In this document: positions 4,342-35,473 of the stretch, one piece after another | How the letters are laid out: the number at the start of each line of letters is the position of its first letter | Position numbering within the stretch: position 1 is the first letter of the stretch | Assembly (NCBI RefSeq): GCF_026210795.1 | Contig: NC_089460.1 | Location: forward strand, 2,070,501 to 2,134,500 | Direction of reading: 5' to 3' | DNA length: 64,000 bases | DNA from: Rhizophagus irregularis | Taxonomy: Eukaryota; Glomeromycota; Glomeromycetes; Glomerales; Glomeraceae | Translations under genes and position numbers: made by a program | Notes under the pieces: generated by a model | What the model was told of the DNA's origin: nothing | Databases searched by the model: none | The model's input: the letters and a program-made list of their open reading frames with translations, nothing else

Positions 4342-4627
4342 AGGATCCTACTTACTTCTAATAGAGGTCACCTATAAGTCTAAAGTAAAATTACATAAAA
4401 AAATTAAAAAAACTGGTTGAATTTATAAGTTATAAATTAAAAAAAGCAAATGTAATTCTGTAGTAAGTTTTTTTTACATAATTGTTAAATATATGGTAAA
4501 ATTAAATAGGATTTTAAAATGTAACTTATAATTATAAGATAAAATTTATGATTTTGTAAAATTTATTAATATACAGTCAACTCTCTTTATAGTCACACAT
4601 TTGGGATAGTCCATATTTGGTGATTAT

Positions 4628-4748
4628 GAGCAAACAGTCTTATGACTTTATCTTTTATTATAATTTTAAACGAAAAGTACAATAGTCAAATCGAACAATA
4701 TTACAAAAGTATTACAAACAAAATATAGAAAAATAAACATAAAAAATA
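4628..4748 (-). mobile_element. 5'-truncated LINE tail (121 bp) at the shared target site
   Basis: Read on the minus strand this is the extreme 3' end of the LINE, ending AGTCATAAGACTGTTTGCTC. It is flanked by ATATTTGGTGATTAT at 4613-4627 and again at 4749-4763. It matches the 3' end of copy 1 (4764 onward) with small differences, including several internal bases. It looks like a separate dead-on-arrival insertion at the same target. Confidence 0.75.
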
Positions 4749-5026
4749 ATATTTGGTGATTATGAGCAAACAGTCTTATGACTTTATTTTTATTTAATTT
4801 TTAAACGAAAAGTACAATAATCAAATCGAACAATATTACAAATAAAATATAGAAAATAAACATAAAAATAAAAAGAACTAGCTTCACGATTCATACAAGT
4901 AAAGAAATCTAAACAAAATAAAATTAAGTAAAGAAAAACTAAACTATTACAGAAAGCAGCATCTCTCAACTTTACCCGAAGGCCAGTGTGAGTCAACTAT
5001 CCAGCGTCACTAAGATCCAAGTCACG

Positions 5027-8000
5027 TTACCAAAAAGAAATCCTAAGTAGAGGCTGAACTGTTAAGTAGCGCCAAAAATCCAAGTGCGAAATCCAAGATC
5101 CCTCACGGATTACATAAGAGGAAACCCAAGAAACCCAGGAATCCAAGGAAACTGTCGCCAGGGAAGGTGTCAAAAAATCAGGAGAAATATGAGAGAAAGG
5201 ATGAGAAATAAGAGAAGGACCAATAGCAGACGATTTCATTTTATTAGTAATGCCTTGAGCTGATTCCCAATAATGAAAGAAAACGGAACGGCACAACCAG
5301 ATTTGAACATAAAGGTCAAAATGAAAGTTGTGTAGGGGTGTATCAAGGATAGACCAAATATTGGATAGTGAAAAATAAGTTCCAAGAAAACTTGTAAGAG
5401 ACATCGGTATAAGTCCTCGAGCTAATCGCAGACAGAAGTTTGAAGGAGGGTCACATTCCCAACAATCAATAGCCGTAAATTCTGCAATAAAAGAGTCTGA
5501 TAAAGGTTTCAAAGGAGTCGCGAAAAGAAATTTTTCAAGGTAAACAGTACGAAGGTCCAATAGAAGTGTTTTAAAAGTATTAAATGGGCTAAAATCAGAT
5601 AGTATATAAGGACAAGTCCATAGGTGGTCTAAAGTCTCAGGAGAGGAGTTGCATTGAGGACAGAGCCAACTCGGATCATAAATATGAGGCTTTCGTTTCT
5701 GAAGAGTTGTGAGTGTCAGAAGCATATCCAATAAAATCTTGATACGAAAAGCACAAAATTCAGAGCAGCCATTGCGATGGGAAAATTGTAATTGTTTATT
5801 ATTAAAGCAAAATTTGGTACAAGCCCAATCGATGTCGGAATAGAGGAATTAAGATTGAATCTTGGTAATAAAGCAAGAGTCAAAAGATTCTTAGCGTCAA
5901 AAATTTCTCCAATGAATTTCCGGATATTCATATCCACAGGTAAAGAATTAAATTGTAAAATACAAAGAGCCAAAAGTGCAGGCGACTGAAAGGAAAGACA
6001 CAAGTCTGTATGAGCAGCTTTTGCTAAATCATCAACGTGATTATTCAAAGAATCGTCAGCGTGAGCAGGAACCTTGATTAAAGTAACTTCTAGGTTCTTT
6101 CATGAAATAATAGCATGTGCCGAAGACCATAAAAGGTGGTTGGATTCTTTAAGCATTTTAGGAATAAAAGGAGCATCCACATACGTAGACCATAGAGAAA
6201 TTAAATGAGCACAATCAGTAGCGACAGTAATCTTGGAATTCTGAGGGAGAGAGTCCAATCCATGCAATAAAGCAAAAATTTCAGAACGCAATGCAGAAGG
6301 AATGGTATTATAATGAGATTCAAGAATGAATCCATCAGAATCAATAGCAGTCCATGCATAAGCCATCGAAGGTACCGAATGACTAGGAAAAGGAAGAAAA
6401 GAGCCATCGATATAGAGTGTAGACACCAAAGAAGGAAGTTGGATAGCGGAAATCCTAGACAGTTGATCGTTCATAGGAAGTGATCGAACCGGAGCAAAAA
6501 GATGAAATAATAATAGAGATTTGGCATAGCCTAACGAGGCGGAAAGTAAGACCGAACGAGTATCCGCATGTATATAAGTACGAGGCTTCGTAGGGTAACG
6601 GATAAGAGTGGATAAAGCCACATAAGAAAAGCACTTTTCTGAAGGATATCGTTTAATCAAAGTCTTGGAAGTAGAGGATCGCGGGATAGCAGAGGCACAA
6701 CCTTGGCATGCAATAAAATCGGATAATAAGTCATCAACAGATGACGCAATCCAATGTGAAATAAGAGCTTCATTTCGCGGAGCAGGATAGGTAATGATCA
6801 CACGGCCAACAAGAAAAAAATTAGTATCACGATTAAAAGAAATAGCCCATTGTGGATTAAACAAATAATTTCGACTAATATTTATAGAATGGATAGAAGC
6901 TACAGTATGGGAATTAGGTATTCTAAATTGCGGTAAAACAAAAAAGGAAGAAGAATTAGAAATAACAACAAAATTAAATAAATAAGTAAACCAAGCAGGC
7001 ACAGATCCTTTATTCGAAACACGTTTAAGAAAGCATAAATCTTTCCATGAAAGAAGTCTGGAGCCACATGGAGTAACCAGTTGGGCAAGGAAACAAGTAC
7101 CAAAATTGTTTCGAACATTTTTCATGGAAGTAAATAAATCCTTAGGTAAAATAGACCGGAGTGGAATCGCCGGACATAGATCCTTCTCGGAGGTCGGAAC
7201 AATAAAGACCACGTGATATTCAATCGAGAAGAGAACAATAAAGAATTAAATAAAGAATGTGTGCGAAGAGAAAAGGTATGGGACCGATGGTTCTAAATCA
7301 ATAGTAGAAGGACAGGCATCACAATCTAGGAAGCCTTGGAGATAAGTAATTATATAATTGGCAAAATTCTTATATAAAGGGTGAGAAAAAATTCTTTGCC
7401 ATGAAGCCACATGAGACGATAAAAATCGACCAAATGCTTGTTGGATTGAAAATGGCAACAATGTAAAAAGCGCGGAAAGAGGAGTCGTTGAGGCAAAACC
7501 AGCCTTCTGTTGAATGAGAAAAAGCATTGGGAAACCATACGGTTAATGGTGGATTCAGCAAATAATGTGATTTGTAGGCGAAATTCTAGTCTCAGGAGCA
7601 AAACAACATTGTAAAGGTAAGCCACATGGTGTGCCAAAAGTTTTTTAGGACTAAGTAAAGCAGCCATATCTTTAACCATGGAAGTACATTGATCATGAAC
7701 AAAACGAGAGGAAGCCGAAAGGCAAAACCAGACACCTAAAAAACGGAAAGACTTAGATAAAGCTAACGCCTTTAAAGTAAGGGAACAGATCGGGATTAAG
7801 GGAGATGGGAAAAGATCAAACACTATAGTTTGAGAAAATTGTTCAGAAGAAAGAAGGATATATTTTGCAGAATTCGCTTGAGTAATATTTAAAGTATAGA
7901 ATTCAGCGGTAATGGAAAGACAATCTTCAATTCCTCGTTTAGATGAAGCAATCAAAGTAGAATCATCCATAAACGTAATATGTGAAACAGGAAGATTCTG

Positions 8001-10880
8001 TTGTTCATATTCAATTGGAGAATAATCCAATAATGCAGAGGATTTTAAAATAAAAGGATCACAAGCTTCTCGATTAAGTGTTGTAAGCAAAGGATCTAAA
8101 TAAATCACCCATAATAACGGGAAAATAATTTCACCCTAGTCAATACCAATTCTAACTCTATATCCAGAAGTATCACCATGATGAGTAATGATTTTGTTGT
8201 TGCGTCTTGTAAAAAGGTTGATGATAAACTTAATCAACAAAGACGGTATATGCAGACAGATTAAAGCTAGTCTAAGCATATTCAAATCAATTGAGTCAAA
8301 GGCTTTAGAAATGTCTTGAGAAACAATCCATAATTCTTGGTCATCAGTTTTGTCAAAGCGGCGTTGATAAATAATAGCATCAAGCATCTTAATAGGAATG
8401 TCAGTAGATCTACCCAACAATCCAGCAAAATTACCACCTTGAAGTATTTGGTTATCAGCTAGGATTTTTAAAGTCGAGTTGTAACGACCTTAACCACACA
8501 TTTGCGTACAGTTTCTAACAGAGTAATAGGTCACGTATTCTTCAATTGGGCGTCAAATTCATGAGGCTTAGGAATGGGATAAACAAGCGCTTCACGCCAA
8601 TTAGCAGGAATATCTCCATGAATAAGGCAGGCATTGGCTAAAATAAGGGACAAATTAAAAGCTTCTTCAGTTAAATATTTGAGCATCTCATAAGAGATCT
8701 TAGAAGGACCAGAGGCTTTGTTATTAGGCATAGACCGAATAGGATCCCGGATATCTAATATAAAGGTCATAATGGACTTTTGGCCAAAAACACCCCTTTT
8801 TGCTGAAACTCAAAAAATCGTTTTTTGTAAATATCTCAGCATCCAGTAATTCAATTTTAATGAACTTTTTTTTATTTTGTAGCCCTCATTTAGCTCTACA
8901 ATTTAAAAAAAGTTCATCAAAATTGGACTACTGGATGCCGAGATATTTACAAAAAACGATTTTTTGAGCCCCTGAAAAATGGGCCAATCTGCCGAAAGTG
9001 TGACTTATGACCTGTTTTGGAGATATCTGGGGTCCTGACTGAATAGTGTTTTTCCATTCTTCTTCCAGAATAGGAGACATGACCGAGTTATATAAAGACG
9101 AGTCAATGTCAGAAATAGGAGCATATGCTCGTTGCCAGCGTGAAGGAAAGGAATCAGTAGAAGAATACTGGACCAAAGAAGGAGTGACAACCGATTGGAA
9201 ATGTTTAATAGCAGCTTGTTTGATATCTGAAGGGTCAGTAAGTAAAGTAGGTTTGTAGTCAATTACAACCAAAACTCTATCGAGAATGATAGAGCGATGT
9301 TCCACTGACAGGGCTGAAGAAATGAAAGAACCCAGCGATGTAGAGAAATGTTCGTCTCTAAGAGCAGTATAATATTCAATAGAATCCACACGATATTGAT
9401 TAAATTGCGTGGAAAGATAGGCAGAGACCAAAGCTTTTTGTGAACGCAAAAATTTGACAAAAGCAGGAAGTGGTGTTGTACTATAAATAGGTATAGTATA
9501 ATCTGTTAAAAGAGATTTCAAAAGAATTAATTGTGTAGGTAAAGTATTAATCATTTGTGAAATTTGAGCGGGGCGATTGGTCCTAGATGTGGTCAATTTA
9601 AACAATAATCTATCCAAGAATTTGTTGATAGCAATAAGCTTTGTGAGCTCAGGAGAATATTTATGATGATGGGTATTGGATACGTGTTGGAATGGTAAAG
9701 AATCTATGGCACCTCCAAGAATAGATCGTTTAAGAGCGTGCCAAAGTTTGTCTAATGAGAGAGCCGAAAGTGAAGATATTGAAGAATGATGTGTAGTCAA
9801 ATACAACTCGAGACGTGAGTTTACTTCATTGGAAAATGTGTCCCAAGTATCTTCCGTTAAATTTTTGTACAGAAAAATGGTGCGTTGTTCACTTTTCTGC
9901 TTTAATCTAGCTTTGGCTAAAGTAGCGAAACAAGAGCTAAAATCAAAGGCTGTAAAAAGGACACAGTGATCAGTAAATTGATTATCATTCAACTTAGGAC
10001 AAGATTCAATATAAGAGAAAAGACTGGGAGCAGGAAATCCAGGGAATGACCAAATATAATTAAGTCTTGAAAAACCATACTGATGATAAAAAGTAGGACT
10101 AGGACCTGAAATTGAAGAAATATGGGATTGATGATCTGTAAAATATCGAGAAGAGAGTGATCGTAAAATTTTCAAATGATGTTGGGGAAGATGTGAATGG
10201 GAAAGTTCATCTGCATTAAAATCACCAAGGATGATTACATGATAATTATTTGAACAGGCTTTATCAAGCCATGAATTAAGTTGTGCAAAAATAGCATCAC
10301 GTTCTTTATAATGAATAGAATGATAAGGAGGAATATAGACAGAAATAATGGAAATTTTTGTTTGATAGAAAAAAAGATCCAATTTTAAAAGACGACCTTT
10401 CCAAGGATCAATCTTCTGAACATGTTTATGTAAAGGATGACGAAGTAAAAGACCAACACCATCATGTGGTCGCAAATTAGAAGGAGAAGGAGCCCAATAG
10501 GACTTAAAATTATATTGGGAATGTTCATTTTGATAAATAAATTTAGCACTGGAAGAAGTAAGACGAGTATCATTTAAAGATAAAACGCCAAAAGAAGAAT
10601 GAAGAAAATAATTTAACAAATGTAATTGTCGAACAGGGGAACACAAACCATTAACATTGATTTGTCCAAAATTAACAAGAGGGGAAAAAGGAAGAGAAGG
10701 ATTATTGGGACTATTAAAATTTGGTATCGCACTATTAGGGGGGTGAAATCCCTGTGATACACCCGATATAGATTGGTGTTCAATCATTGGAAGGGGAGGG
10801 TTTTGAGGGAGAGAAGGAGTCCAATTTTTCCATAATCGAACCAAGTTGAGTAGAAAGATTCTTTTGCACATTAGTGACAT
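5027..10880 (-). pseudogene. LINE ORF2 of copy 1 (endonuclease-RT-RNase H), broken
   Basis: The protein would nick the target and reverse-transcribe LINE RNA. The endonuclease region is open from 10880 (motifs GQINVNGL, ILGDFNADE, TDH). The RT fragments follow at 8531-8770, 8136-8420 (SQDISKAFDSIDLN) and 7350-8108 (FMDDSTLIASS). RNase H is in 6100-7212 (YIDGSFLP, SALRSEIFALLHGL, VATDCAHL), and a C-terminal CPQC...DHLWTCPYI zinc finger in 5027-5731. Reading is broken by frameshifts and stops near 8500, 8110, 7350, 7230 and 6100, and by the foldback insertion at 8742-9036. It cannot be functional. Where copies 2 and 3 have TGA between RT and RNase H, this copy reads CGA. Confidence 0.85.
8742..9036. 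mobile_element. 295-bp foldback MITE inside LINE ORF2
   Basis: Absent from LINE copies 2 and 3, so this is an insertion. It is a near-perfect palindrome with arms of about 130 bp: the left end GGATCCCGGATATCT mirrors AGATATCTGGGGTCC at the right, with paired AAAAAATCG/CGATTTTTT blocks inside. The flanks GACCGAATA (8733-8741) and GACTGAATA (9037-9045) form a 9-bp duplication with one mismatch, suggesting a Mutator-type element. Confidence 0.75.
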
Positions 10881-11070
10881 TAGAAATTTCCAATTGGCAA
10901 TTGCAGACGGGAAGTAGTAGTATCGGGGGTAGTGATATTAGGGCGGGAGTTAGGTAACGGGACATGTCTGCGTAATAAGACGGAGTTAGAGTCCAGAGCT
11001 GAAAAGGAAGCATCAGGAGAAGTGTCCATAAGAGAAGGGAAAGTATGGGGAGGAAGAGTGAATCCAGAAT

Positions 11071-12897
11071 TCATGTCTTAGGTTGGGCATCATCCCATCC
11101 ATTATTATAAGAATAATTTAGATTTTCAAGATCATCACGAGGCAGATACAAATCAGAGTCACCAGGGTTGTCATAATTCATCATTGATTCAAGCTCAGAT
11201 AACCTATACTCATGGGCCGTGATAGTATCATTCATCCAGGAGACAGTTTCCTCTAAAGTATTGAGGGTGTGAGCAATCTTTTCAATCTGCGCTTTTAACT
11301 CATCAATGATGTGTTGAGAAAGCGTATAATTAGGATTGTTCTTCAGAAGAGTAGACATAGTATTGTTAGGATGAGGAGTATGTAGAGATTGTGTAGAACC
11401 AGAAGAATTTGCATTGTTCCTAGAATTGGTATTATTGTTACTGAACGGATTGTTACGGTTAGGAACATTAGGACGAGAAGTATTATTATTATTATTATTA
11501 TTGTTGGATCTGGATGAGGACGAATTATTACGGGATCTAGGGGTGGATCGCGATCTTGAACGGGAATTAGATTTATCACGTGATTGGCGCGAATCCTGAC
11601 GACCACGTTGAGGACCAGCATTAAAGCGTGAATATAGTTTGTTAAGGCGATCATTCACTTTGCGTGCGGGACGAGGGTTACATATAGAAGAGGAGCAATC
11701 CAAGCGTCCACAAACATGACATAAAGTGTGAGCTTCATTAGGAGGGTGCCATGTTAAACCTTTGCCTCGAAAAGCCACAGATAACTCTTTCGCTGCCTCA
11801 AGGGTATCAAACGAAGAGAAGTTTAAATATACATAAGGTTTGGGCTTGTAGGAATTGATAAAAAGGGGGACATTAAGGGCTTTAGCGTTGACTTGAGTAG
11901 CAATTTCTAAAAGGTCAGCTTCTTTGATATTCTTTGGAATACTGGCAAGAATGGCGACATGCTCTCTTCGGCTATCGCGTTGGGATTTTGAGAAAGATGC
12001 CAGACAGACGCGTAAGGAATTACCTAGGCAAATGATCACCCAGATATCGTTAAATTGGGTAATTGCATCTGCAGAGGAAAATTGGATATGACCATTATAA
12101 TAATGTTTCTTAGGGGTGAGTTTACACTTGATCACAGTGCCATATCGGGAAAATGCCTGGCGGACCTGCGTCTCGTTTAGGAAAAGTGGGATGTCGGTGA
12201 CAAACAAAGACTTCGCTTTGGCATCTGCAGGGGAATAGTGAGTGAAGACTAAATTGAGAAGATCTGCATGTGGGGAGCTGATACAATCGGTAAAATCTTG
12301 CTGATCGTTGAAGAAGACAAGGATCTTTTTGTTATCGCCTAATCCATCGCAGCGTGCGCGGGCACCATAGAAGGAATATCGGGAGAGTGAACAATCCACT
12401 TTGTCACACATGGAGCGATTGGTGGTAAATTTAGCTTTGAACGCGTCAGGCACGTTGCGTAAATAGGCTGCAGCATGATAACGAGATGGTGCGGATTTGA
12501 TAGCGGCAGCATTACCATCGGCGGATGGCCGACGTTCAGGGATATCGAAGGCAACAGATTTACCTTTGTCATTAGGAGAAGGGTTTGTAGAAACGGGAAG
12601 GGGGTGGGCATGTATAGAAGAATCTAAAGACGTATTAGTAGGAGGAGGTTGAGTAATAACTAGAACTCTATTAATAGGAAGGCCAGAAGGAACGGTGGAA
12701 GTGAGGCTGGAAGCAGGAGCAGAGGGTGAAGTTATATCAACATTCATGGCGTCAGGAGATAATACGCGAACGTTTGTTAGGTGCGCCAGCAGTATTGGTA
12801 GGAGACAAAGGTCGGTCTCCAGACGGAGCGAAGTGTCAGGACGCGGTGGCGGTGGAATATCTGGGTTAATAACAGAAGGAGCTGGAGGTGTTGTCAT
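11071..12897 (-). CDS. LINE ORF1 protein of copy 1 (RRM, zinc knuckle, coiled coil)
   Basis: 608 aa, the RNA-binding partner protein of the LINE. In order: a proline-rich N terminus (PPAPSVINPDIPPPPRP); an RRM-like region near residues 230-320 (SLFVTDIPLF ... NGHIQF) and a second RRM-like segment (HVAILASIPKNIKEADLL); a cysteine knuckle LCHVCGRLDC...C; a Ser/Arg/Asn-rich low-complexity stretch; and a coiled-coil-like segment (QHIIDELKAQIEKIAHTLNTLEETV). Compared with copy 2 it ends about 90 residues early because of a frameshift near 11071; the lost C-terminal part is still visible in other frames at 10780-11074. It is likely non-functional in context. Confidence 0.75.
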   Translation of the reverse strand: MTTPPAPSVINPDIPPPPRPDTSLRLETDLCLLPILLAHLTNVRVLSPDAMNVDITSPSAPASSLTSTVPSGLPINRVLVITQPPPTNTSLDSSIHAHPLPVSTNPSPNDKGKSVAFDIPERRPSADGNAAAIKSAPSRYHAAAYLRNVPDAFKAKFTTNRSMCDKVDCSLSRYSFYGARARCDGLGDNKKILVFFNDQQDFTDCISSPHADLLNLVFTHYSPADAKAKSLFVTDIPLFLNETQVRQAFSRYGTVIKCKLTPKKHYYNGHIQFSSADAITQFNDIWVIICLGNSLRVCLASFSKSQRDSRREHVAILASIPKNIKEADLLEIATQVNAKALNVPLFINSYKPKPYVYLNFSSFDTLEAAKELSVAFRGKGLTWHPPNEAHTLCHVCGRLDCSSSICNPRPARKVNDRLNKLYSRFNAGPQRGRQDSRQSRDKSNSRSRSRSTPRSRNNSSSSRSNNNNNNNNTSRPNVPNRNNPFSNNNTNSRNNANSSGSTQSLHTPHPNNTMSTLLKNNPNYTLSQHIIDELKAQIEKIAHTLNTLEETVSWMNDTITAHEYRLSELESMMNYDNPGDSDLYLPRDDLENLNYSYNNGWDDAQPKT

Positions 12898-13054
12898 AGT
12901 ATAAAGCTCAGCAAAGAGGAAAGCAACTGGGGAATTGTTAGTATTTGTACGAGCACTTAGAAATTTTCAAACGAAAATTTCAAAAATAAATTTTTTATTA
13001 GTATTTTCAAAAATTCAGGAAAGAGTTGCGATGATCCTCATATTTGGTGATTAT

Positions 13055-13397
13055 TTTACAAGTGTATTGTACGTTAAGTGGCCACTACTTTCTGCACCCT
13101 CTATTGAAGGTTATGGAGGTAGGTCGTTCGTATCCTCGCCATCCTTGAACCACCAGATGTCATCAAGGCCACCTTTTTAACCAAGACAACTTATCCAGCA
13201 CGTTCATTAATCAGGCATACCCCAGGGGACCCGAAGGCCTTTGGATCGGAAGAACACCACCCTACTCGTTCTTTAATCCGTTGCATGATACTGTAATGGC
13301 TACTATTATAAACCCCTCACCACTACTACTGTCACGGAGGACTTTTGTCAGATAACCTTCAAACATCTAGACCCCTTCCATACCACCATATTAGGTA
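13055..13397 (-). mobile_element. 5'-truncated SINE-like fragment wedged between LINE copies
   Basis: Read on the minus strand, this 343-bp segment begins with sequence resembling the last ~310 bp of the SINE-like element at 31579-32575: shared blocks include TGGTGGTATGGAAGGG, AAAGTCCTCC and TATCATGCAA. It diverges strongly toward its end. It is bounded on both sides by the LINE target 15-mer (13040-13054, 13398-13412), so it occupies the same position in the array as a LINE copy. The plus-strand ORF at 12935-13180 is a chance reading across the junction. Confidence 0.65.
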
Positions 13398-13674
13398 ATA
13401 TTTGGTGATTATGAGCAAACAGTCTTATGACTTTATCTTTTATTATAAATTTTTTTTAAACGAAAAGTACAATGAACAAATCGAACAATATTACAAAATA
13501 TAGAAAATTAAACAAAAAATAAAAAGAACTAGCTTCACGATTCATACAAGTAAAGAAATCTAAACAAAATAAAATTAAGTAAAGAAAAACTAAACTATTA
13601 CAGAAACGCATACCCCATCTTTACCCGAAGGCCAGTGTGAGTCAACTATCCAGCATGTCCTAAGATCCAATCCG

Positions 13675-19083: not shown

Positions 19084-19131
19084 ACTGTCAGGGGGTGAAG
19101 TCCCTGTAAATCACCAAAATTAAGTTGGTAT

Positions 19132-21248: not shown

Positions 21249-21667
21249 AGTTTAAAGCTCAGTAAAGAGGAAAGCAACTGGGAAATTATTAGTATTCTGA
21301 ACGAGCACTTAGAAATTTTCGAACGAAAATTTCAAAAATAAATTTTATTGGTATTTTCAAAAATTCAGGAAAGAGTTGCGATGATCCTCCATATTTGGTG
21401 ATTATATGCAAACAGTCTTATGACTTTATCTTTTATTATAAATTTTAAACGAAAAGTACAATAATCAAATCGAACAATATTACAAAATATAGAAAATTAA
21501 ACAACAAAAAATAAAAAAAAACTAGCTTCACGATTCATACAAGTAAAGAAATCTAAACAAAATAAAATTAAGTAAAGAAAAACTAAACTATTACAGAAAC
21601 GCATACCCCATCTTTACCCGAAGGCCAGTGTGAGTCAACTATCCAGCATGTCCTAAGATCCAATCCG

Positions 21668-24600
21668 TTACCAAAAAGAAATCCTAAGTAGAGGCTGAAC
21701 TGTTAAGCGGCGCCAAAAATCCAAATGTGAAATCCAAGATCCCCCACAGATTATATAAGAGGAAACCCAAATAACCCAGGAATCCAAGGAAACTGTCGCC
21801 AAGGAAGGTGTGGAAGAATCAAGAGGAATGTTAAAGGAAGGAAGAGGAATAGAAGAAGGCCCAAGAGCTGACGATTTCAATTTTTTAGTAATGCCTTGAG
21901 CTGATTCCCAATGATGGAAGAAAATGGAACGGCACAACCAGATTTGCACATAAAGGTCAAAATGAAAGTCGTGCAAAGGTGTATCTAAAATAAACCATAT
22001 GGTAAGTGAAGAAAAATAATTTCCAAGGAATTCTGTAAGGGATATCGGTATAAGTTCTCGCGCGAGTCTCAGGCAAGAAAAAGAAGGAGGGTCACAATCC
22101 CAACAATCAAGAGCCATAAAATCAGCAACAAAAGAGTCTGGTAAGGGTAATAAAGGTGACGCAGAAATAAATTTATCAAGACAATTGGCTCGAAGAGCCA
22201 ATAAAAGAGTTTTAAAAGTAATCAAAGGGCTAAATTCTGGTAAGATATAAGGACAAGTCCACAAGTGGTCTAAAGACTCAGGAAAGAAGTTACATTGAGG
22301 ACAAAGGCAACTCGGATCATAAAGGTGAGGCTTTCGTCGCTGAAGAGTTGTAAGCGTCGGAAGCATGTCTAATAGTAGTTTGATACGGAAACTACAAAAC
22401 TCGGAACGGCCATTCCGATGGGAGACAAAGTGCTTATTGTTAGTCAGACAAAATTTGGTGCAAGCCCAATCAATATCGGAAGTCGAAGAGAAGGAATTAA
22501 ATCTTGGTAATACAGCAAGAGTTAAAAGACTCTTAGCATCAAAAATATCTCTAATAAATTTCCGGATATTCATATCCACAAGTAAGGAATTAAATTGTAA
22601 AATACAAGGAGCCAGTAATTCCAATGATGGATGAGAAGAAAGATGTGAGTCCGTATGAGCGGCTTTAGCTAATGCATCCACATGATTATTTAAAGGGTCG
22701 TCACTATGAGCAGGAACCTTGAGCAAAGAAACATCCAGCTTCTTTTGTGACATAATGGTACGTATGGAAGACCACAAAAGGTGGTTAGGTTCTTTAAGCA
22801 ATTTAGGAATAAAAGGAGCATCCACATACAAAGACCATAAAGAAAGTAATTGAGCACAATCAGTGGCGACAGTAATCTTTGAATCTCGAGGGAGGGAGTC
22901 CAATCCGTGCAATAAAGCAAAGACTTCTGAACGTAAAGCAGAAGGAAAAATGGAAGAAATATTATTATAGTGAGATTCCAAAATAAATCCATCAGGATCT
23001 ATAGCAGTCCATGCAAAAGCCATCGAGGATACCGGATGACTAGGAGGAGAAAGGAAGGAACCATCAATATAAAGTGTAGACACCGAAGAAGGAAGTTGGA
23101 TATCAGAAATCCTAGGCACTTGTTCATTCGTGGAAGGTAACCGATCCGGAGCAAAGAGATGAAATAGTAAAAGAGATTTGGCATAGCCTAACGAGGCAGA
23201 AAGTGAAACCGAGCGAGTATCCGCATGTATATAAGTACGAGGTTTCGTCGGATAACGGATCAGAGTTGATAAAGACACATAGGAGAAACACTTTTCAGAA
23301 GGACATCTTTTAAGCAATGTCTTAGAGGTAGAGGATCGTGGGAGAGCAGAGGCACAACCTTGGCATGCAGTAAAATCAGAAAGCAAGTCATCAACCGAAG
23401 ACGCAATCCAATGTGAGATAAGAGCTTCATTACGTGGAGCAGGATATGTAGTAATCACACGGCCAACAAGAAAAGAATTAGTATTACGATTGAAAGAAAT
23501 AGCCCATTGAGGATTAAACCAATAATTTTGACTAATGTCAATAAAAAAAATAGAAGCTACAGTGTAAGAACTAGAAATTCTAAATTGTTGTAAAATAAAA
23601 AAAGAAGGAGAATTAGGAATAACAATAAGATTAAACAAATAAGTAAACCAAGCGGGCACAGATCCTTTGTTCGATACTCGTTTAAGAAAGCGTAAATCTT
23701 TCCATGAGAGAAGTCAAGAGCCACACGGAGAAACCAGTTGGGCAAAAAAACGAGTACCAAAATTGTTTCGAACATTTTTCATGGAAGTAAATAAATCTTT
23801 TGGTAAAATAGACCGGAGTGGTATCGCCGGACGTAAATCTTTCCTCGGAGGTCAGAATAATAAAGACCACGTGATATTTAACCGAGAAGAGAACAATAAA
23901 GAATTAAATAAAGAATGTGTTCGTAAAGGAAAGGTATGGGACCATGGTTCCAGGTCAATAGTAGAAGGACAGGCATCACAGTCCAAAAAACCTTGGAGAT
24001 AAGTAATCATGTAATTGGCAAAGAGCTTATATGAAGGGTGAGAAAAAATTTTCTGCCATGAAGCCACATGGGATGATAGAAATCGACCAAATGCTTGTTG
24101 AATAGAAAAGGGCAACAATGTGAAAAGCGTGGAAAGAGGAGTGACTGAGGCCAAACCAGCCTTCTGACGAATAAGGGAAAGCATTGGAGAAACCATGCGA
24201 TTAATGGTGGATTCAGCAAATAATGTGGATTGTAGGCGAAACTCTAGCCTCAGAAGTAAAACAATATTGTAAAAATAAGCCACATGTTGTGCCAAAAGCT
24301 TTTTAGGACTAAGTAAAGCAGCCATATCTTTGACCATGGAAACAGTTTGGTTATAAACAAAACGAGAAGAAGCCGAAAGACAGAACCAAACACCTAAAAA
24401 ACGGAAAGAAGTAGATAAAGCTAACGCTTTTAAAGTAAGAGTAGGATTTGAAATTAAAAAAGAGGGAGAAAGATCAAATGTTATATTTTGAGAGAATTGT
24501 TCAGAAGAAAGAAGGATATATTTTGCTGAGTTTGCTTGAGTATTATTTAAAGTATAAAATTCAGCAGTAATGGAAAGGCGATCTTCAATTCCTCGTTTAG

Positions 24601-27529
24601 ATGAAGCAATCAAAGTAGAGTCATCCATAAAAGTAATGTGGGAAATAGGCAAATTATATTGTTCATATTCAATCGGGGAATAATCCAGTAATGCAGAAGA
24701 TTTCAAAATAAAGGGATCACAAGCTTCTCGATTAAGCGTCGTAAGTAAAGGATCCAAATAAATTACCCATAATAACAGAGAAATAATTTCACCTTGGTCT
24801 ATACCAATTCTAACTCTATATCCAGAAGTATCACCATGGTGAGTAATAATTTTATTATTACGTCGTGTAAAGAGGTTGATAATAAATTTAATCAGTAAAG
24901 AAGGTATATGTAGACGGATTAAAGCTAGTCTAAGCATATTCAAATCAATTGAGTCAAAGGCCTTAGAAATGTCCTGAGAAACAATCCATAATTCTTGGTC
25001 ATCAGTTCTGTCAAAGCGTCGTTGATGAATAATAGCATCAAGCATCTTAATAGGGACGTTAGTGGAACCGCCTGGCAATCCAGCAAAATTACCACCTTGG
25101 AGCACTTGGTTGTCAGCTAAGATTTTTGAAAGTCGAGTTGTAACGACCTTAACCACACATTTTCGTACTGTTTCCAATAGAGTGATAGGCCACGTATTCT
25201 TCAATTGAGCGTCAAATTCATGAGGCTTTGGAATGGGATAAACAAGCGCTTCACGCCAGTCAGCAGGAATATTTCCATGAATGAGACAAGCATTGGCTAA
25301 TGCAAGGGACAAATTGAAAGCTTCTCCAGTTAAATGTTTAAGCATCTCATAAGAGATCTTGGAAGGACCAGAGGCTTTATTATTAGGCATAGAATTAAGA
25401 GTGTTCTTCCATTCATCGGCCAGAATAGGAGACATAACCGAGTTATATAAAGACGAATCGATGTCAGAAAGAGGAGTATACGCTCTTTGCCAACGTGAAG
25501 GAAATAAATCCGTAGAGGAATACTGGACCAAAGGAGGAGTAACAACCGATTGAAAATGTTTAATAGCAGCTTGTTTGATAACTGAAGAATCAGTAAGTAA
25601 AGTGGGTTTGGAGTCAATTACTACCAAAACTCTATCAAGAACGATAGAACGATGTTCCACTGATAGGGCTGAAGAAATAAAAGAGCCTGGAGACGTAGAA
25701 AAATGTTCATCTCTAAGAGCAGTATAATATTCAATGGAATCTACACGATGCTGATGAAATTGCGTAGAAAGATAAGCTGAGACCAAAGCTTTTTGTGAAC
25801 GCAAAAATTTGACAAAAGTGGGAAGTGGTGTTATACTATAAGAAGGTATAGTATAATCTGATAAAAGCGATTTAAGAAGAATTAATTGAGTAGGTAAAGA
25901 ATTAATCAATTGTGAAATTTGAGCAGGACGACTAGGCCTAGATGTAGTCAATTTAAACAATAATCTATCCAAGAATTTGTTGATAGCAATAAGCATGGTA
26001 AGCTCAGGAGGATATTTATGATGGTGAGTATTGGATACATGTTGGAATGGTAGAGAATCAATGGCACCACCAAGAATAGAACGTTTAAGGGCGTGCCAAA
26101 GTTTATCCAATGAAAGGGCTGAAAGTGAGGATATTGAAGGATGGTGTGTGGTCAAATATAATTCAAGACGAGAGTTTACTTCATTGGAAAATGTGTCCCA
26201 AATATCTTCATTCAAGTTCTTGTAAAGAAAGATGGTGCGTTGTTCGCTTTTCTGCTTTAATCGAGCTTTGGACAAAGTAGCGAAACAAGAGCTAAAATCA
26301 AAGGCCGTGATAAGTACACGGTGATCAGTAAATTGATTATCATTCAACTTAGGACAAGTTTCAACTTGAGAGAAAAGACCAGGAGCAGGAAATCCAGGGG
26401 ATGACCAAATATAATCAAGTTTTGAAAAACCATTCGGATGATAAAAGGTAGGACTAGGACCTGAAGTTGAAGAAATATGGGATTGATGATCCGTAAAATA
26501 TCGAGAAGAAAGTGATCGCAAAATTTTCAAGTGATGTTGAGGAAGATGTGAATGTGAATTTTCATCTGCATTAAAATCACCAAGGATGACTACGTGATAA
26601 TTATTAGAGCGGGCTTTATCAAGCCATAAATTAAGTTGGGCAAAAATAGCATCACGTTCTTTATAATGAATAGAATGATAGGGAGGAATATAAACGGAAA
26701 TGATAGAAATTTTAGTTTGATGAAAAAAAAGATCTAATTTTAAGAGACGACCATTCCAAGGATCAATTTTCTGAACATGTTTATGTAAAGGATGTCGAAG
26801 CAAAAGACTAACACCATCATGAGGTCGTGAATTAGAAGGGGAAGGAGCCCAATAGGACTTAAAATTATGAAGGGAATGTTCATTTTGATAAATAAATTTA
26901 GCACCAGAAGAAGTAAGACGAGTATCATTTAAAGATAAAACGCCGAAAGAAGAATGAAGGAAATAATTTAACAGATGTAATTGTCGAACAGGAGAACACA
27001 AACCATTAACATTGATTTGTCCAAAGTTAATAAGAGGGGAAGGAAGGGAGGAAGAGGAAGGATTATTAAGACTATTAGTATCAAGTTTCGCACTAGTAGG
27101 GAGGTGAAATCCCTGTGATGCACCCAATATAAATTGGTGTTCAATCATATGAAGGGGAAGGTTTTGAGGGGGAGAAAGAGTCCAATTTATCCATAATCGA
27201 ACCAAGTTGGGCAGAAAGATTCTTTTGTGTATTAGTAACATTAAAAATTTCTGATTGCAAACGGGAAGTGCTAGCATCGGGGGCAATATTAGTAGGTCGG
27301 GAGGCAGGTAAGGGGACATGTCTTTTTGATAGGACGGAGCTAGGATCCAGGGCTGAGAAGGAAGCATCAGGAGAAACGTCCATAAGAGAAGAGGAAGTAT
27401 GGGGAGGAAGATTGAAACCAGAATTCGTGTCTTGGGTTGGAGCATCATCCCATCCATTATCATAAGAATGATTATAATGTTCATGAGCATCCTGAGGCGA
27501 ATGCAATTCAGAATCGCCAGGGGCATCAT
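21668..27529 (-). pseudogene. LINE ORF2 of copy 3 (longest open version)
   Basis: An open frame of 1225 codons (23852-27529) includes the whole endonuclease (FGQINVNGL, ILGDFNADE, KLDYIWSS, TDHRVL) and RT (SQDISKAFDSIDLN, FMDDSTLIASS); its first ~150 codons overlap the end of ORF1 and are probably not translated. It ends at the same TGA as copy 2 (23852). The frame continues past this stop and past a second CGA-to-TGA change near 23714 into an open 663-codon stretch (21668-23659). That stretch carries RNase H (YIDGSFLSPP, SALRSEVFALLHGL, VATDCAQLL, NNHVDALAKAA) and the zinc finger (CPQCNFFPESLDHLWTC). Only these two stops separate it from a full-length ORF2. Confidence 0.85.
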
Positions 27530-29259
27530 AATTCATCATGGATTCCAGTTCAGATAACCTATACTCATGAGACGTAATAGTATCATTCATCCAAGAGACA
27601 GTTTCTTCCAAAGTATGGAGAGTGTTAGCGATCTCTTTGATCTGCGCCTTTAATTCATCAATAACATGCTGAGGAAGCGTAGGGGCAGGATTGTCGGATG
27701 AAGAAGTAGGTGTAGTAGAAATGATAGGATGAGGTCTGTGCGGAGGTTGAGTAGGTCCAGAAGAATTTTCATTGTTCCTGGGATTATTATTATTATTGTT
27801 GGGCCGGTTGCTACTTCGAGAAGTATTGGGACGAGAAGAGTTAGAATTATTATTGCTATTGTTAGAGCGGAATGAAGAGGAATTATTATTGCGAGATCGA
27901 GAATTGGAACGTGATCTTGAATGGGAATTAGAATTGTCACGTGACTGTCATGAATCCTGACGGCCACGTCTAGGGCCAGCATTGAAGCGAGAGTAAAGTT
28001 TGTTAAGGCGATCGTCCACTTTTCGTGTGGTACGGGGATTGCATATAGAGGGAGAACAACCAGGACGCCCACAAACATGACATAGAGTTTGTGCATCATT
28101 AGGAGAGTGCCATGTTAATCCTTTGCCGCGGAAAGCCACGGTCATTTCTTTGGCAGCTTCAAGAGATTCGAATGAGGAGAAATTCAAATATACATATGGT
28201 TTAGGCTTGTAGGAATTGATAGATAATAGAACGTTAAGGGCCTTAGCATTGACTTGAGTGGCAATTTCTAGTAGATCAGCTTCTTTAATATTCTTAGGAA
28301 TACCGGCAAGGATAGCAACATGTTCTCTGCGGCTATCGCGTTGGGATTTCGAAAAAGATGCTGGGCAGACACGTAAAGAATTACCAAGGCAAATGATTGC
28401 CCAAATATCATTGAATTGGGTAACTGCATCCGCACAGGTAAACTGGATATGTCCATTATAGTAATGTTTTTTAGGGGTGAGTTTGCATTTAACCACAGTA
28501 CCATATCGGGAAAATGCCTGACGGACTTGAGTCTCAGTAAGGAAAAGTGGGATATCAGTGACGAACAAAGACTTACGTCACTGAGTTTGGCGTCTGCAGG
28601 GGAATAATGACTGAAGACCAAATCGAGGAGATCGGCACGTGGGGAACTGACACAATCGGTAAAATCATGTTGATCAAAGAAGAAGACAAGGATTTTTTTA
28701 TTATCGCCTGATCCATCGCAGCGTGCGCGGGTGCCATATGAGGAATAATGGGAGAGTGAGCAATCCACTTCGTCACACATGGAGCGATTGGTGGTAAATT
28801 TAGTCTTGAACGCGTCAGGCGCGTCGCGTAAATATGCCGCAGCATAATAACGAGATGGAGCGGATTTTATAGCGGCAGCGTTACCATCAGGGGATGGTCG
28901 TCGTTCGGGAACATCAAAGGCAACAGTTTTGCCTTTACCATTGGTGTTAGTGGGAGCATGGATAGAAACGTCAACAGTTTCAACAGGAGTAGTAGTGTTT
29001 TGAGGAGAGGTAAACACTTGGACTTTGTTGACAGGAAGACCAGAAGGAACGGTAGAAGTAAGGGTGGGAGCAGAAGCAGAAGGCGAAGTTATATCAACAT
29101 TCATAGCATCATCAGTGACAATACGTGAACGTTTATTAGGCGCGCTAGCGGTAGTCGTGGGAGACAAAGGTCAGTCTCCAGAGGGAGTAGAAGTAATAGG
29201 ACGCGGTGGCGGCGGAATATCTGGGTTAATAACAGAAGGAGCTGGAGGTGAAGACATAG
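27141..29259 (-). pseudogene. LINE ORF1 of copy 3 (broken)
   Basis: Pieces with ORF1 identity: 28268-29167 (N-terminal half), 27948-28568 (RRM region, FVTDIPLFLTETQVRQAF, and knuckle CHVCGRPGCSPSIC) and 27141-27611 (coiled coil and C terminus ending LGSIMDKLDSFSPSKPSPSYD). Breaks are a frameshift near 28570, an in-frame stop at 27948 just before the Ser/Arg-rich tract, and a shift near the N terminus. The upstream initiation region (MSSPPAPSVINPDIPPPPRP-like) lies at 29200-29259. Confidence 0.8.
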
Positions 29260-29909
29260 TAGAAGCTCAGTAAAGAGGAAGGCAACTGAAGAAATATTAG
29301 TATTTAGAACGAGCACTTAGAAATTTTCGAACGAAAATTTCAAAAATAAATTTTTATTAGTATTTTCAAAAATTCAGGAAAGAGTTGCGATGATCCTCAT
29401 ATTTGGTGATTATAAAGAGATGTGACTATATAAAAAATTTCTTATATTTGTATATCATAATTCTGGCCAAAAATTAACATAATTTTAGCCAGAATTATAC
29501 TTAAAACTTTATTGTATCATAATTTCACCAATATTAATCGTAGAAAGATGATGTTACCGCCATTCGATTTGTCTTGATGGGACAGTTCTAATGGTATAAA
29601 ATACGTCGAAATCCAATTACTAGATTAATTTCAGAAATTAAAAAAAATATTAATGGTTTTTGTGTAATAACTCTGTCAATATTGATCCTAGAAAGACGAT
29701 CTTACTACCATTCGATTCGCCTTGATGAGACAAATCTAATGGTATAAGATACATCGAAATCCAATCACTAGATCAATTTCCGAAATTAAAAAATATTAAA
29801 TGGTTTTTAAGTAATAACTCTGTCAATATTGATCACAGAGAGATGAGCTTACCACCATTCGATTCGTCTCGATGAGGCAATTCCAACGAGCTATAAATTG
29901 TCTTTTTAC

Positions 29910-31424
29910 TTTGCTATGTTTACGGCCAGACCACCCATTGCCTCTTTTTGAGACTAATTTCGGGTCTGTATCCTATCATCTTCATTGGGCAACCATTATA
30001 CCGAGTACTTAATTCCTCAGGTAACAGCACCACTATAGAAGACATCCCCCATCAGGCCACTTTAGGCTAATCTGAAGCTAGGTACACGCCGTCTACTCAT
30101 CCTATACCCATTGCATGATACTGATACTCAATTTATTTTACAACCTTTAGAGAGCATCTACTTTTATAGAGGACTTTTGACAGGTAACATCAACCATCTA
30201 TGCTACCTGTTTTGTGCACAAACACCTTGGTTGGTCTAAGATCTAACAGAAGGTCTACATATCCGCCGATTTGCAGAATTTGCCGATCATCAATTATGTG
30301 GCGCAGTACCGATTAAAATCGATCAAAACCCGTTCCTACGTAAGAAAAAATGTTAAAAATATATAAAAAAACCTTTAAGACCTCTCCCAAAATATTTACC
30401 TCTTTAACCCGAAACCAGTAGAAGGAGTTTCTAGAAAAAAAGGGAAAAAAATATTATAAAGTTAGTTTATTAAAAAAAGAAAGAAAAACTTTACAAAAAT
30501 ACAGAATATTTAATGATTTAACGAAAAAAAATTAACTGAAAAATAATTAATAATAAATATCAAATAGATTATAATTAAACAACTAATCAATACATAATTT
30601 AATTTCGCTAAATCATTGTTATTAATATTTAGAGTTATATCTTTATTGAAAGATTTTTTTGAATAATTTTGCTTTCTAAATGAATTTTTTTTATAAACTA
30701 TAAAAAAAAAAATAAAAAAACAGTTCCAAGTTGTGTCTAATGTAAAATAATTACTAATATACTTGCAAAAATTCTCAACTTACTTGATGTAAAAACTGGT
30801 TGAAAAGTTGATGGGGAGTTGATGGGGAGTTTAATAGGGAGTTTACGAAAGAAAAAAAATTTTTTAACGCAACTTTTTGTTGAAGTAATTTCTTGATATC
30901 TGTCATATGATTATGTAGTACAAGTGTGATCATTTTTGCAAAACTTAATTTACCTAATTTTTATTAAATTATTGTCAAATTCCTTAATTTAGACGAATTT
31001 TGTTAATTCCGCAGATCGGCAGATATGAACTACCACTAAGATATTGCACCCTCAGCTTTACCATCTAGGACGACCATCTAGCCATTACTGACCCCAAGTG
31101 GTATCGTAGAGTAACTATCCGGACAGGAAGTCCCCCCAAGGTATAGTAGTGACCAAAACGAGAACAGGATTGTAGCATGCAGTAGGGGAACGTTAGAAGG
31201 ACACCATGACCACCCTTAGTTGAAATGTGCGGCCTAACCGTACACACTAATTCACCATAATGCAGTCCAACTATGCTAATCCCTGTACCTTCACGCTATT
31301 GGTTGTAGCGTCCGCAGTAAAATTCTTTTTATTTCTGTGGTCATGGGAATTGAACCTGCGACCTCACCATACTCAGGCTTAATAAGAGTCTCAGTGACTA
31401 ACCACTAAGATAGGGTGACCAACC
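29910..31424 (-). mobile_element. tRNA-headed SINE-like element, left copy (interrupted)
   Basis: An inverted copy of the element at 31579-32575. The tRNA-like head is at about 31330-31422 (minus) and the tail at 29910. Target duplications of 19 nt with one mismatch flank it (29891-29909, 31425-31443, ending GTCTTTTTAC); such long duplications are typical of target-primed retroposition. A 770-bp TIR element is inserted at 30258-31027, and about 250 bp of the middle seen in the right copy is missing. Confidence 0.7.
30258..31027. mobile_element. 770-bp TIR element inside the SINE-like element
   Basis: Absent at the corresponding place in the right SINE-like copy. The ends are inverted repeats of about 24 bp: CATATCCGCCGATTTGCAGA at the left, and CATATCTGCCGATCTGCGGA when the right end is read on the minus strand. 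The interior is AT-rich with no coding capacity. The target duplication looks like one or at most two bases, so the superfamily is unclear. Confidence 0.65.
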
Positions 31425-31578
31425 CTATAAATCGTCTTTTTACAATCACTAGGTACTGAGAAATCTAGCAAAATGTTAAATGGCGCAGTAAACGTAAATC
31501 AAGAAATATTATAATGCTGATATTTAACATTTTGTTAAATAACTCGTCAGCCAGCTGACGGAAAAAGGATAAAACTAC

Positions 31579-32575
31579 TAAGGTTGGTCACCCTATCTTG
31601 GTGGTTAGTCACTGAGACCCTCATTAAGCCTGAGTATGGTGAGATCGCAGGTTCGATTCCCATGACCATGGAAATAAAAAGAATTTTACTGCGGACGGGC
31701 CTTACTGAACCAATAGCGTGAAGGTACAGGGATTAGTGTAGTTGGACTGCATCATGGTGAATTAGTGTGTACAGTTAGGCCGCACATTTCAACTAAAGGT
31801 CATGATGTCCTTCTAACGTTCCCTATGAGGCCATTGGCACGTGCGCAGTCCTGTCCTCGAGGTCACTACTATACCTTGGCGGGGACTTCCTATCCGGGTG
31901 GTCACTTCACGATACCACTTGGGGTCAGTAATGGCTAGATGGTCGTCCTAGATGGTAAAACTGAGGATGCAATGTCTTAGTGGTAGTTAGACCTTCTGTT
32001 AGGTCTTAGGCCAACCAAGGTGTTCGTGCGGAACGGGTAAGCAGGTAGTTTATGGTTAGGTTCGATTCCCCACTTCTTGGGTCCTAGTTGGTGATCCCTG
32101 GTGGTTGATACCTACCATAAGGGGTGATCCTGGACAGAAGCCTGCTACTTCCTGTATGAGTGGTCACTACAAAGTATACCACTTGGGGTAAACAACTGTA
32201 CTATCGGTGTTAGGTAATCGCGGGCTGTAGTGGCCTTTGAGTGAGACTTAGTACCTAAAATGGTGGTATGGAAGGGTACTAGATGGTTGATGTTACCTGT
32301 CGAAAGTCCTCCATGAAAGTAAATGCTCTCTAAAGGTCGTAAAATAAATTGAGTATCAGTATCATGCAATAGATATAGGATGAGTAGGCGGCGTGTACCT
32401 AGCTTCAGATCAGCCTAAAATGGCCCGATGGGGGATGTCTTCTAAAGTGGTGCTGTTACCTGAGGAATTAAGTACTCGGTATAATGGTTGCCCAGTGAAG
32501 ATGATAGGAGGGCAGTGGACCCGAGATTAGTGCATAAGAGGTAATGGGTGGTCTGGCCGTAAACACTAGCAAAGG
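31579..32575 (+). mobile_element. tRNA-headed, dimeric SINE-like element, right copy (complete)
   Basis: 997 bp flanked by the perfect 16-nt repeat AAAAGGATAAAACTAC (31563-31578, 32576-32591). A tRNA-like head occupies 31585-31668: outer 7-mers TGGTCAC/ATGACCA pair at six of seven positions, an A-box-like CTTGGTGGTTAG lies at 31598-31609, and a good B box GGTTCGATTCC at 31650-31660. A second B box (GGTTCGATTCCCC, about 32051) and a second copy of the CACTTGGGGT segment (about 31917 and 32180) show that the body is a decayed dimer. No poly-A tail; it ends CACTAGCAAAGG. No protein is encoded. Confidence 0.7.
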
Positions 32576-33719
32576 AAAAGGATAAAACTACCACCATTCG
32601 ATTCGTCTCAGTGAGACGATTCTAACAAGCTATGATACATCTTTGTACGATTATTAGATGCCAAGTTATTTAATATATTCTTTATATAACTGTGATTATA
32701 AACGGTTCTTTTTAATATAAGATTTTTGAGGATAGGTGTGATAGTGACTATAGATAGATTGTGACTATATAGGATAGATTTTAATAATAAAGTGTTTTGA
32801 ACATTCAACTGGTGTGACTATATAGTAGAATGTGACTATAACGGGAGTGACTATAGAGGGAGTTGACTGTATATTATTTTTAGTATAAAGTTTATTACAC
32901 AAATACGTAAAATTTCATTACATAAACATATAAAATTTATTATACTATTTGTAGTATAAGTTTATTATATGGACACATAAAATTTCATTACACAGATATG
33001 CATGTACAATTTATTATACTATTTTTAGTATAAGTTTATTACACAAACACGTAAAATTTATTATATTATTATTAGTACTAATTTATTATATGGACATGTA
33101 AAATTTTATTACACAGATATGTAAAATTTATTATTATGTAAACATATAAAATTTTACTACACAAATACGTAAAATTTGTTATATTATTTTTAGTACTAGT
33201 TTATTATACAGATACATACAATTTCATTACACAAACACATAAAATTAAAAAAAAATATGTAAAAAAGAATTTTTTAAGAGTATCTGTGTAATATAAAAAA
33301 TTATAAAATAAAGTAAAGATCAGAGGATGAATGGAAGGTGGAATAAATTAAAGTTATTTTTAAACTGACTATAAACTTTTTTTTTATTTTTTTTTTATCA
33401 AAAAATATATATATCTGTAATTATTAATCAATTTTAAACTTATTTTAAATAGAAACTTTTTTATTTTTTTTAAAATAATTATATCTAAAAATTAGGCCAA
33501 TTTTAAAAGAAATAAAAAAATACCAAATATATAAAATAAATTATGTTTTATATAATCTATAAATTCTACTTAATTATAAATATTACTAAACTTATAAGGT
33601 AAAAATATACATGATTTAAAAATGTAACTGGAAAGGTGATAAAATTACTTAGTAAAAGAAAAATTTGGAATAAGGTAAATTTACAAAAATTTTATGGTAA
33701 CCTCTATGTGGGGTCCTAT

Positions 33720-34141: not shown

Positions 34142-35473
34142 CACTACCCTCCCAAAAGTATCCGGTCAAATAATAAAGATTATATTTTTATTAATAATAA
34201 TTAGTATTTAGTTGGCCATCCATTGTTTTTAATGCATGCTTCAATTCGACATGGTATGCTCTCAATTAAATTAATGTAAGTTTTGGGTGGGATTCTTTCC
34301 TACTCATCTTGCAATGCTTCTTCAAGTTCACGAAAATTCTTTGGATGTGCAGATCATTTTCGAAGTCTTCGTTCAAGTTCATACCACAAATGTTCAATAG
34401 GATTAAGATCCGGGGATTGGGAAGGCCAATCCGGAAGAATATTAATCTTTTTCTGTACAATCCAATTTTTAACATCTCTTGCAGTATGAACAGAGCATTG
34501 TCATCCTGAAATGCGTAACGTTGCCTGTGATGTTTTGATCGAATGAATGGCAGTAAATTTTTTTCTAAAATATCAATATAATCTAACCTATTCATTTTAC
34601 CGTCTACTTTTACCAATGGTCCCAGTCCTTTTCCTGAAAAGCATCCCCACATCATAACACCACCACCATCGTATTTAACTGTAGGAGTCAAATTTTCGAT
34701 ATTGTATCGGGTTCCATTTTTTTGCCAAACACGACTAGGACCATCATTTTGAAAAAGTGTAAATCTGGATTCGTCACTCCAAATGATAGTTTTCCATTGT
34801 TGCATAGACCAACTTTGCCGTTCTATGCACCATGACAACCATTTTTCACGTTGAGACTCTGTAAGAAGTAGTTTCAGCGCAGCAACCCAGGAATAAATTT
34901 GCATTTGATGAAGGTTTTTACGAATAGTGTTAGCTGAAATCTGTTTATCCTGTGAACTATGAAATTTCTGCTAAATTTCACCCAAAGAAAGTTTATTATT
35001 CTTTTTAATAATTTTTAAAAGTTTACAACGATCATTATTATTCATGGAACATGGTCTTCCAGTTCTTTTAGTTGTTAATCCAGTATTAAAATTTTTGTAT
35101 CGGGCAATTGTGTCTGTAATGGTACTTTTTGGAATTTTTAGGACATGCCTGATAGCTTCATGAGTTCTTCCTCCTTTCCAGAGGCCAATAATTTGCCCAC
35201 GCCCAAACTCACTCAACTCACGAGTTTTTCCCATTTTAAAATAGCTAAGTGGCATAGTGAACAAAAAAAGTAAAGATCATCATTGGCAAAATTGAGGTGT
35301 TATTATTTGTTTTAATCGCCAAATCCAGTACATGCATCATAACACAATAAAAATACATCCATTTTAATTTTGAGAATCAGGGGAATTGGTTTTTTTTAAA
35401 AAAATGATAATTTATATATTCAATTTTGAGAAAATCGAAAAGAGCTTGACCAGATACTTTTTGGAGGGTAGTG
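34142..35473 (-). mobile_element. Tc1-type DNA transposon (decayed)
   Basis: 1332 bp. The termini are inverted repeats: CACTACCCTCCCAAAAGTAT at the left, and CACTACCCTCCAAAAAGTAT when the right end is read on the minus strand. TA flanks both sides (34140-34141, 35474-35475). It encodes a broken transposase on the minus strand. Confidence 0.9.
34210..35264 (-). pseudogene. Tc1 transposase, inactivated
   Basis: The start at 35264 sits just inside the right TIR. The N-terminal paired-type helix-turn-helix is readable (LSEFGRGQIIGLWKGG, IPKSTITDTIARY, TKRTGRPC). The first catalytic Asp is in IIWSDESRFTLF, followed by MMWGCFSGKG and the second catalytic FQDDNA; the third, in the DLNPIEHLW block, is in another frame. 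Defects seen: an in-frame TAG at about 34970 where a Gln codon is expected, a one-base deletion right after FQDDNA (about 34498), a TGA near 34358 and a TAG near 34300. Several stops are C-to-T or G-to-A transitions. Inactive. Confidence 0.85.

Follow-up and report, generated by a model that had tools for sequence, protein, structure and literature searches.

We analysed a 64,000-nucleotide stretch of the Rhizophagus irregularis genome (contig NC_089460.1, positions 2,070,501–2,134,500 of the forward strand; hereafter the window), in which one copy of a pogo-like DNA transposon stands empty and a second is split by a nested array of long interspersed nuclear elements (LINEs) and short interspersed nuclear element (SINE)-like insertions. 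The empty copy has the features of a pogo-like miniature inverted-repeat transposable element (MITE): a TA duplication, terminal inverted repeats (TIRs) beginning CAGT, and no open reading frame (ORF) of ≥150 amino acids in 1557–2517. The TA duplication and CAGT-type TIR fit the pogo group. The outer frame of the array is likewise one element, with CAGTC from 4574, GACTG to 32869 and TA flanking both, and its arm is 93.7% alike to that of the empty copy. Insertions occupy sites A, B and C of the element; A and B lie 628 bp apart within its 961 bp, in opposite orientation. The features are listed below; every site A row is an exact 15-mer match.

1557–2517 (+): non-autonomous pogo-like element of 961 bp, unoccupied; flanking TA at 1555–1556 and 2518–2519; TIR CAGTCAACTCTCTTTATAGTCAC
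1596–1610 (+): empty site A
2224–2238 (+): site B, unoccupied, AAAAGGATAAAACTA; targeted by LINE-B and SINE-B
4574–32869 (+): second copy of the pogo-like element, with TA on either side and nested insertions dividing it
4613–4627 (+): site A copy (target duplication)
4628–4748 (−): 121-bp 5′-truncated LINE-A tail (self-comparison)
4749–4763 (+): site A copy
4764–13039 (−): LINE-A copy 1, with broken frames and more diverged than the other two copies (self-comparison)
13040–13054 (+): site A copy
13055–13397 (−): 343-bp 5′-truncated SINE-A (3′ part), aligning with the full SINE-A at locus L101 at 96.5% over 343 bp
13398–13412 (+): site A copy
13413–21390 (−): LINE-A copy 2 (self-comparison); by Pfam, endonuclease and reverse transcriptase (RT) in the ORF 15850–19083 and an RNA recognition motif (RRM) in 19132–21009
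21391–21405 (+): site A copy
21406–29398 (−): LINE-A copy 3; endonuclease–RT ORF 23852–27529, ribonuclease H (RNase H) ORF 21668–23659
29399–29413 (+): site A copy, beyond which the right part of the pogo-like element begins
29892–29909 (+): left target duplication at site C, agreeing with its right counterpart at 17 of 18 bases
29910–31425 (−): SINE-B copy at site C, interrupted by AT-rich DNA
31426–31443 (+): site C, right target duplication
31563–31578 (+): site B, left target duplication, AAAAGGATAAAACTAC
31579–32575 (+): SINE-B, ~1 kb, with a possibly transfer RNA (tRNA)-like head, at site B
32576–32591 (+): site B, right target duplication, AAAAGGATAAAACTAC

An initial annotation of this DNA had placed the 15-bp site A sequence, ATATTTGGTGATTAT, at every junction of the array and, unoccupied, in the sister element. 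All seven places (1596, 4613, 4749, 13040, 13398, 21391 and 29399) are exact; 0.83 matches with ≤2 mismatches would be expected, and 0 of 100 shuffles reached seven. The annotation had further described four LINE-derived units inserted at one site in one head-to-tail array. The 121-bp tail and the three LINE units stand, the latter being 85–89% alike in the window self-comparison, but the piece between them at 13055–13397 proved to be SINE-A. Site A is indeed used, but the same pogo-like copy also carries SINE-B at sites C and B, and the array, although real, is not a single oddity but one of 15 examined.

LINE proteins

For LINE-A copy 3, Pfam returned RVT_1 (2.6e-14), Exo_endo_phos (2.2e-11) and RNase_H (PF00075; 3.8e-7). 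Exo_endo_phos and RVT_1 exceeded the curated cut-offs in two window ORFs, so that an apurinic/apyrimidinic endonuclease (APE)-like endonuclease and an RT are encoded in one ORF; an RNase H domain follows the RT, as would be expected of the I/Tad1-like LINE that the initial annotation had inferred, and ORF1 is of the RRM type. Target duplications, 5′ truncations at differing points and a constant 3′ end are all present, as in an APE-type non-long-terminal-repeat retrotransposon. Among solved structures, the RT matched only R2 and L1 chains.

LINE copies lie at fixed positions of the pogo-like element

We searched the host genome (146,748,485 bases in 32 contigs) and found the LINE 3′ end at 339 places (≤2 mismatches over 22 bases). 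Exact matches were listed for 100 of these 339, and we read the flanks of the first 60 in that list. Site A adjoined 25 of the 60 and site B the other 35 (with ≤3 mismatches allowed for B), the B flank being (T)AGTTTTATCCTTTT, the reverse complement of the pogo stretch at window 2224–2238. Beyond the site lay pogo sequence in 26 cases, a SINE-like element in 24 and a LINE in 10, and several of the 60 ends, L022 and L044 among them, were slightly altered at the junction. Beside LINE-B 3′ ends, the base before AAAAGG may be G, C, T or another, a variation resembling that of empty pogo copies, and the flank therefore belongs to the host target rather than to the LINE.

Further copies were picked by their ORFs, in list order and leaving out those already sampled, and the DNA after each copy was read. 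All 20 LINE-A copies were at site A, while 19 of 20 LINE-B copies were at site B and one (L158) had site C within the same pogo-like element. Thus, 100 of 100 sampled copies, a count that leaves out the three window copies, occupy one of three positions in a single kind of element (A, 45; B, 54; C, 1). By lineage, this amounts to 45 of 45 LINE-A copies at A and 54 of 55 LINE-B copies at B. Genome-wide pattern counts gave 130 A junctions and 160 B junctions, with none in controls, and the pogo positions 670–684 stand on both sides of LINE-B at two loci (L062 and L063).

These counts bear on the initial annotation. The LINE that it tied to a single 15-bp site does keep to that site, but a sister lineage, LINE-B, uses a second one. 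Tabulating the DNA beside LINE 3′ ends, as it had advised, returned in our samples the 15-bp site for LINE-A, including every ORF-picked copy, and the sister lineage at B for the remaining 35 of 60. Its proviso that most other copies might be flanked by unrelated target duplications was not borne out in the sample of 100.

The target is abundant. ATATTTGGTGATTAT occurs exactly at 646 places in the host genome (one in the reversed control). Unoccupied A sites between short pogo flanks number 411 (≤2 mismatches over 26 bases) and empty B sites 267, with none of either in controls. DDE_1 matches, among which an autonomous partner sharing the TIR might lie, number at least 163 in the genome; in a comparison made without a shuffled control, 3 of 10 fetched DDE_1 loci (L121–L123) had an end beginning TACAGTCAACTCTC with 5–6 mismatches over 23. 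A fourth (L129) had 5 mismatches and matched in another way, and the other six had no such end.

Site C is the second-best match in the pogo-like element to the B motif AGTGATCGTAAAAGG, at 13 of 15 bases, and we retain a link between B and C as suggested by this motif likeness.

Two sister LINE lineages

Full-length LINE-B copies were found at site B (L061–L063) and represent a sister family of LINE-A. Amino-acid identity between the two is 66% in the endonuclease, 69% in the RT part, 53% in the C-terminal part and 42% in the ORF1 part. In a tree of 60 LINE 3′ ends, which includes one very long row (L011, a ~30-bp LINE remnant), the A/B label changes once, against a mean of 19.5 in label shuffles, and 0 of 500 shuffles were as low. 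The LINE-B protein search, in which 118 of 1,068 candidates were scored, gave two identity blocks only (73–100% and 56–59%); an intermediate third lineage was not found among those scored.

The last ~400 bp of LINE-A and LINE-B are 82–83% alike in DNA, compared with ~65–71% elsewhere where the two can be aligned. This high likeness of the 3′ ends perhaps reflects an RT recognition signal.

SINE-like elements share the LINE sites

Two ~1-kb SINE-like elements were identified, with 74 SINE-A tails and 289 SINE-B tails in the genome. Their first 735 bp are 92% alike, after which they are unlike save for a 33-bp stretch. Each showed a site preference. All 20 fetched SINE-A tails adjoin site A (≤1 mismatch), and a further 10 adjoin the exact 15-mer by coordinates, so that 30 of the 74 were checked; for SINE-B, the 17 flanks read (of 289) were at B (15) or C (2). 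SINE-B was found at site C in the window and at L103, L115 and L116. Both target duplications and 5′ truncation are present in these elements.

Default ARAGORN gave no tRNA match in 1–36000 and Rfam none in 29300–33000, while a relaxed ARAGORN run gave a tRNA-like fold in the head, at 18–91, together with several less likely folds. The AT-rich insertion inside the SINE-B at 29910–31425 measures several hundred bases and is of no obvious class. At one further locus (L102; G000 C1:1408300-1412900), a single B site holds four full SINE-B units and one truncated unit, head to tail.

Arrays and alternative origins

Like junctions are spaced at ~8 kb on many contigs. We compared 1.5 kb from each of 38 members of 15 arrays, the window included, together with 7 single copies; the counts include two very-long-branch rows (C12b1 and C13b1), which may be truncated copies joined to foreign DNA. 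The nearest relative lay in the same array for one member of 38 (C22_1), with 1.39 expected under shuffled labels, and identity was 88.4% within arrays and 88.1% between them. An earlier run with 9 arrays had given 0 of 24. Own-array nearest relatives are therefore at chance level, which argues that the arrays arose by separate insertions and not by tandem duplication. The proposal of the initial annotation that each insertion re-creates its target, allowing arrays to grow, is in keeping with separate insertions in the 15 arrays compared. Growth at one end was not evident from terminal branch lengths, the leftmost member having the longer branch in 9 of 15 arrays (p = 0.61), nor was a direction of growth evident among adjacent pairs (13 of 23, p = 0.68).

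The regular spacing, and C22_1 with its nearest relative in its own array, are what tandem duplication or unequal crossing-over of one insertion would give, but the near-equal identities within and between arrays make this origin highly improbable. The window array also alternates in kind (LINE-A, SINE-A and truncated pieces), and its copy 3 is nearer to a copy on C17 (94.3%) than to the neighbouring copy 2 (89.8%). The shared pogo position of the copies would equally be expected if LINEs had inserted once and then spread as cargo of the pogo-like element. On that account the LINE should be at least as well conserved between loci as the pogo arm adjoining it; instead, LINE identity was the lower in 8 of 9 locus pairs, with one tie, although the sample is small and the rates of evolution of LINE and pogo may differ. 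Cargo is also at odds with the 411 empty A sites, with the use of two main sites and with 5′ truncations that vary from copy to copy, and a load of 8–28 kb would be unusual for a 961-bp MITE. We regard spread as cargo as very unlikely, on a par with tandem duplication.

Still less probable is an explanation in which insertion was loose and purging removed all copies but those inside harmless MITEs. A MITE offers safety to an inserted copy, and many LINE copies are broken, but purging would not account for an insertion point that is exact to the base in every sampled copy. We consider it equally implausible that the window array was created by misassembly, to which long near-repeats are prone. 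The copies in the window array differ by 11–15%, and junctions of these types are found again at many loci and on various contigs. The R. irregularis DAOM197198 assembly, which this genome matches, combined Nanopore reads and Hi-C, with highly uniform coverage reported in the accessible part of the paper (PMC10234402).

A proposed role of the MITE as landing pad

We are highly confident in a reading in which a 961-bp pogo-like MITE, present in hundreds of copies, serves as a landing pad for LINE-A, LINE-B and SINE hitchhikers, with arrays built by separate insertions. Both LINE lineages belong to an ~8-kb LINE with an APE-type endonuclease. Close to the left end of the element, LINE-A inserts after ATATTTGGTGATTAT; LINE-B inserts at GTGATCG/NAAAAGG, 628 bp further on. 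Because LINE-B uses the other strand, the two LINEs point in opposite ways. As judged from the junctions, the strand would be nicked after ATATTTGGTGATTAT for LINE-A, or at B on the other strand for LINE-B, and complementary DNA (cDNA) would then be primed at the nick by target-primed reverse transcription, as expected from LINE biology; the endonuclease presumably sets the site. Each insertion carries a target duplication of ~15–17 bp. Since the target is kept on both sides, it can be used again, and head-to-tail arrays follow from separate insertions. The SINEs, with a common 5′ part and two alternative 3′ parts, most likely borrow the LINE-A or LINE-B proteins according to their 3′ part.

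We lean, with moderate confidence, towards a broader interpretation in which the MITE is a shared, self-renewing pad for a small guild of retroelements, a LINE lineage split and its endonuclease shifted to a second site of that MITE, and the SINEs followed by exchanging their 3′ parts. If so, a change of tail alone would retarget a SINE by 628 bp and flip its direction, and the system would represent parasitism at three levels (SINE on LINE on MITE), with the load kept from genes.

Several observations weigh against the landing-pad reading. Roughly 49 of the 339 LINE ends fall outside the A and B junction counts, a rough figure given that the mismatch limits differ, and the use of site C by LINE-B and SINE-B means that specificity is not absolute. 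The split in the LINE tree rests on ~120 bp per copy, with a support of 77 and most forks weak. We also considered a recognition motif common to A and B, but the two are alike at 10 of 15 bases, a score at which site A ties with several places in the pogo-like element and is beaten by two; a common rule is unsupported and this link was dropped. Finally, a sensitive comparison found no likeness of the SINE 3′ parts to the LINE-A or LINE-B 3′ ends, so it is the shared sites that suggest mobilization of the SINEs by these LINEs.

Relation to known systems

The classic case of a LINE in a DNA transposon is Tx1L of Xenopus, a Tx1-clade LINE found in Tx1D. In both systems, a LINE of the APE type keeps to one fixed position within a DNA transposon. 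In contrast to Tx1L, the present system has two sister lineages, oppositely oriented, at two sites of a single pogo-like MITE; SINE-like elements join them, arrays are frequent, and the LINE has RNase H and an RRM-type ORF1. Nested or head-to-tail arrays, with short partner elements at the same site, are known from Zepp of Chlorella and from telomere-specific LINEs; the target here is instead a MITE. R2, also a site-specific LINE, has an endonuclease of another type.

In its accessible part, PMC5035012 includes transposons among the known targets of sequence-specific LINEs and describes R8 and R9 as relatives of R2 whose sites in ribosomal DNA (rDNA) have shifted. As far as that part goes, R1, R2 and other LINEs specific for rDNA or small nuclear RNA (snRNA) genes resemble the present elements in having base-exact sites in a multicopy target and related lineages with shifted sites within one repeat unit (PMC5035012). 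They differ in that the target here is itself mobile and not a host gene; the retroelements described here use a multicopy MITE much as others use rDNA.

R. irregularis repeat libraries list LINE/R1, LINE/I, LINE/L1-Tx1 and SINE families, and the accessible parts of the reports describe no insertion site, nesting or partnership (PMC8647823, PMC11075540). These libraries probably include the present elements under a class label. Literature searches, covering listings and the openings of abstracts, turned up no account of this targeting, nor is it described in the accessible parts of three papers on R. irregularis repeats (PMC8647823, PMC11075540, PMC10234402), with most subscription papers and Repbase outside the scope of this literature search. 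LINEs specific for transposons are a known kind; what is new is the use of one MITE by two LINE lineages and tail-swapped SINEs, with recurrent arrays. LINE-A and LINE-B offer a natural pair for finding the residues that set LINE target choice, which also bears on programmable DNA insertion, and the SINE pair, with its common body and exchanged tails, could reveal which part of the RNA picks its LINE.

Other features of the window

Each of the two pogo-like copies in the window appears to lie inside a copy of an older repeat that has TTACACAAACACGTAAAATT-type tandem units; these repeat copies are inverted relative to each other, 1279–1556 and 2549–3254 pairing with 32870–33694 and 4347–4573 (inverted). 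As the pogo-like copies sit at different points of the older repeat, each repeat copy looks like the empty site for the insertion in the other. An ORF at 34266–34904 (−) had no Pfam match at 1e-3; by its motifs, it resembles a fragment of a Tc1/mariner-type transposase. A 52-bp tandem repeat of 5.8 copies occupies 36380–36683, and its consensus unit is partly self-complementary.

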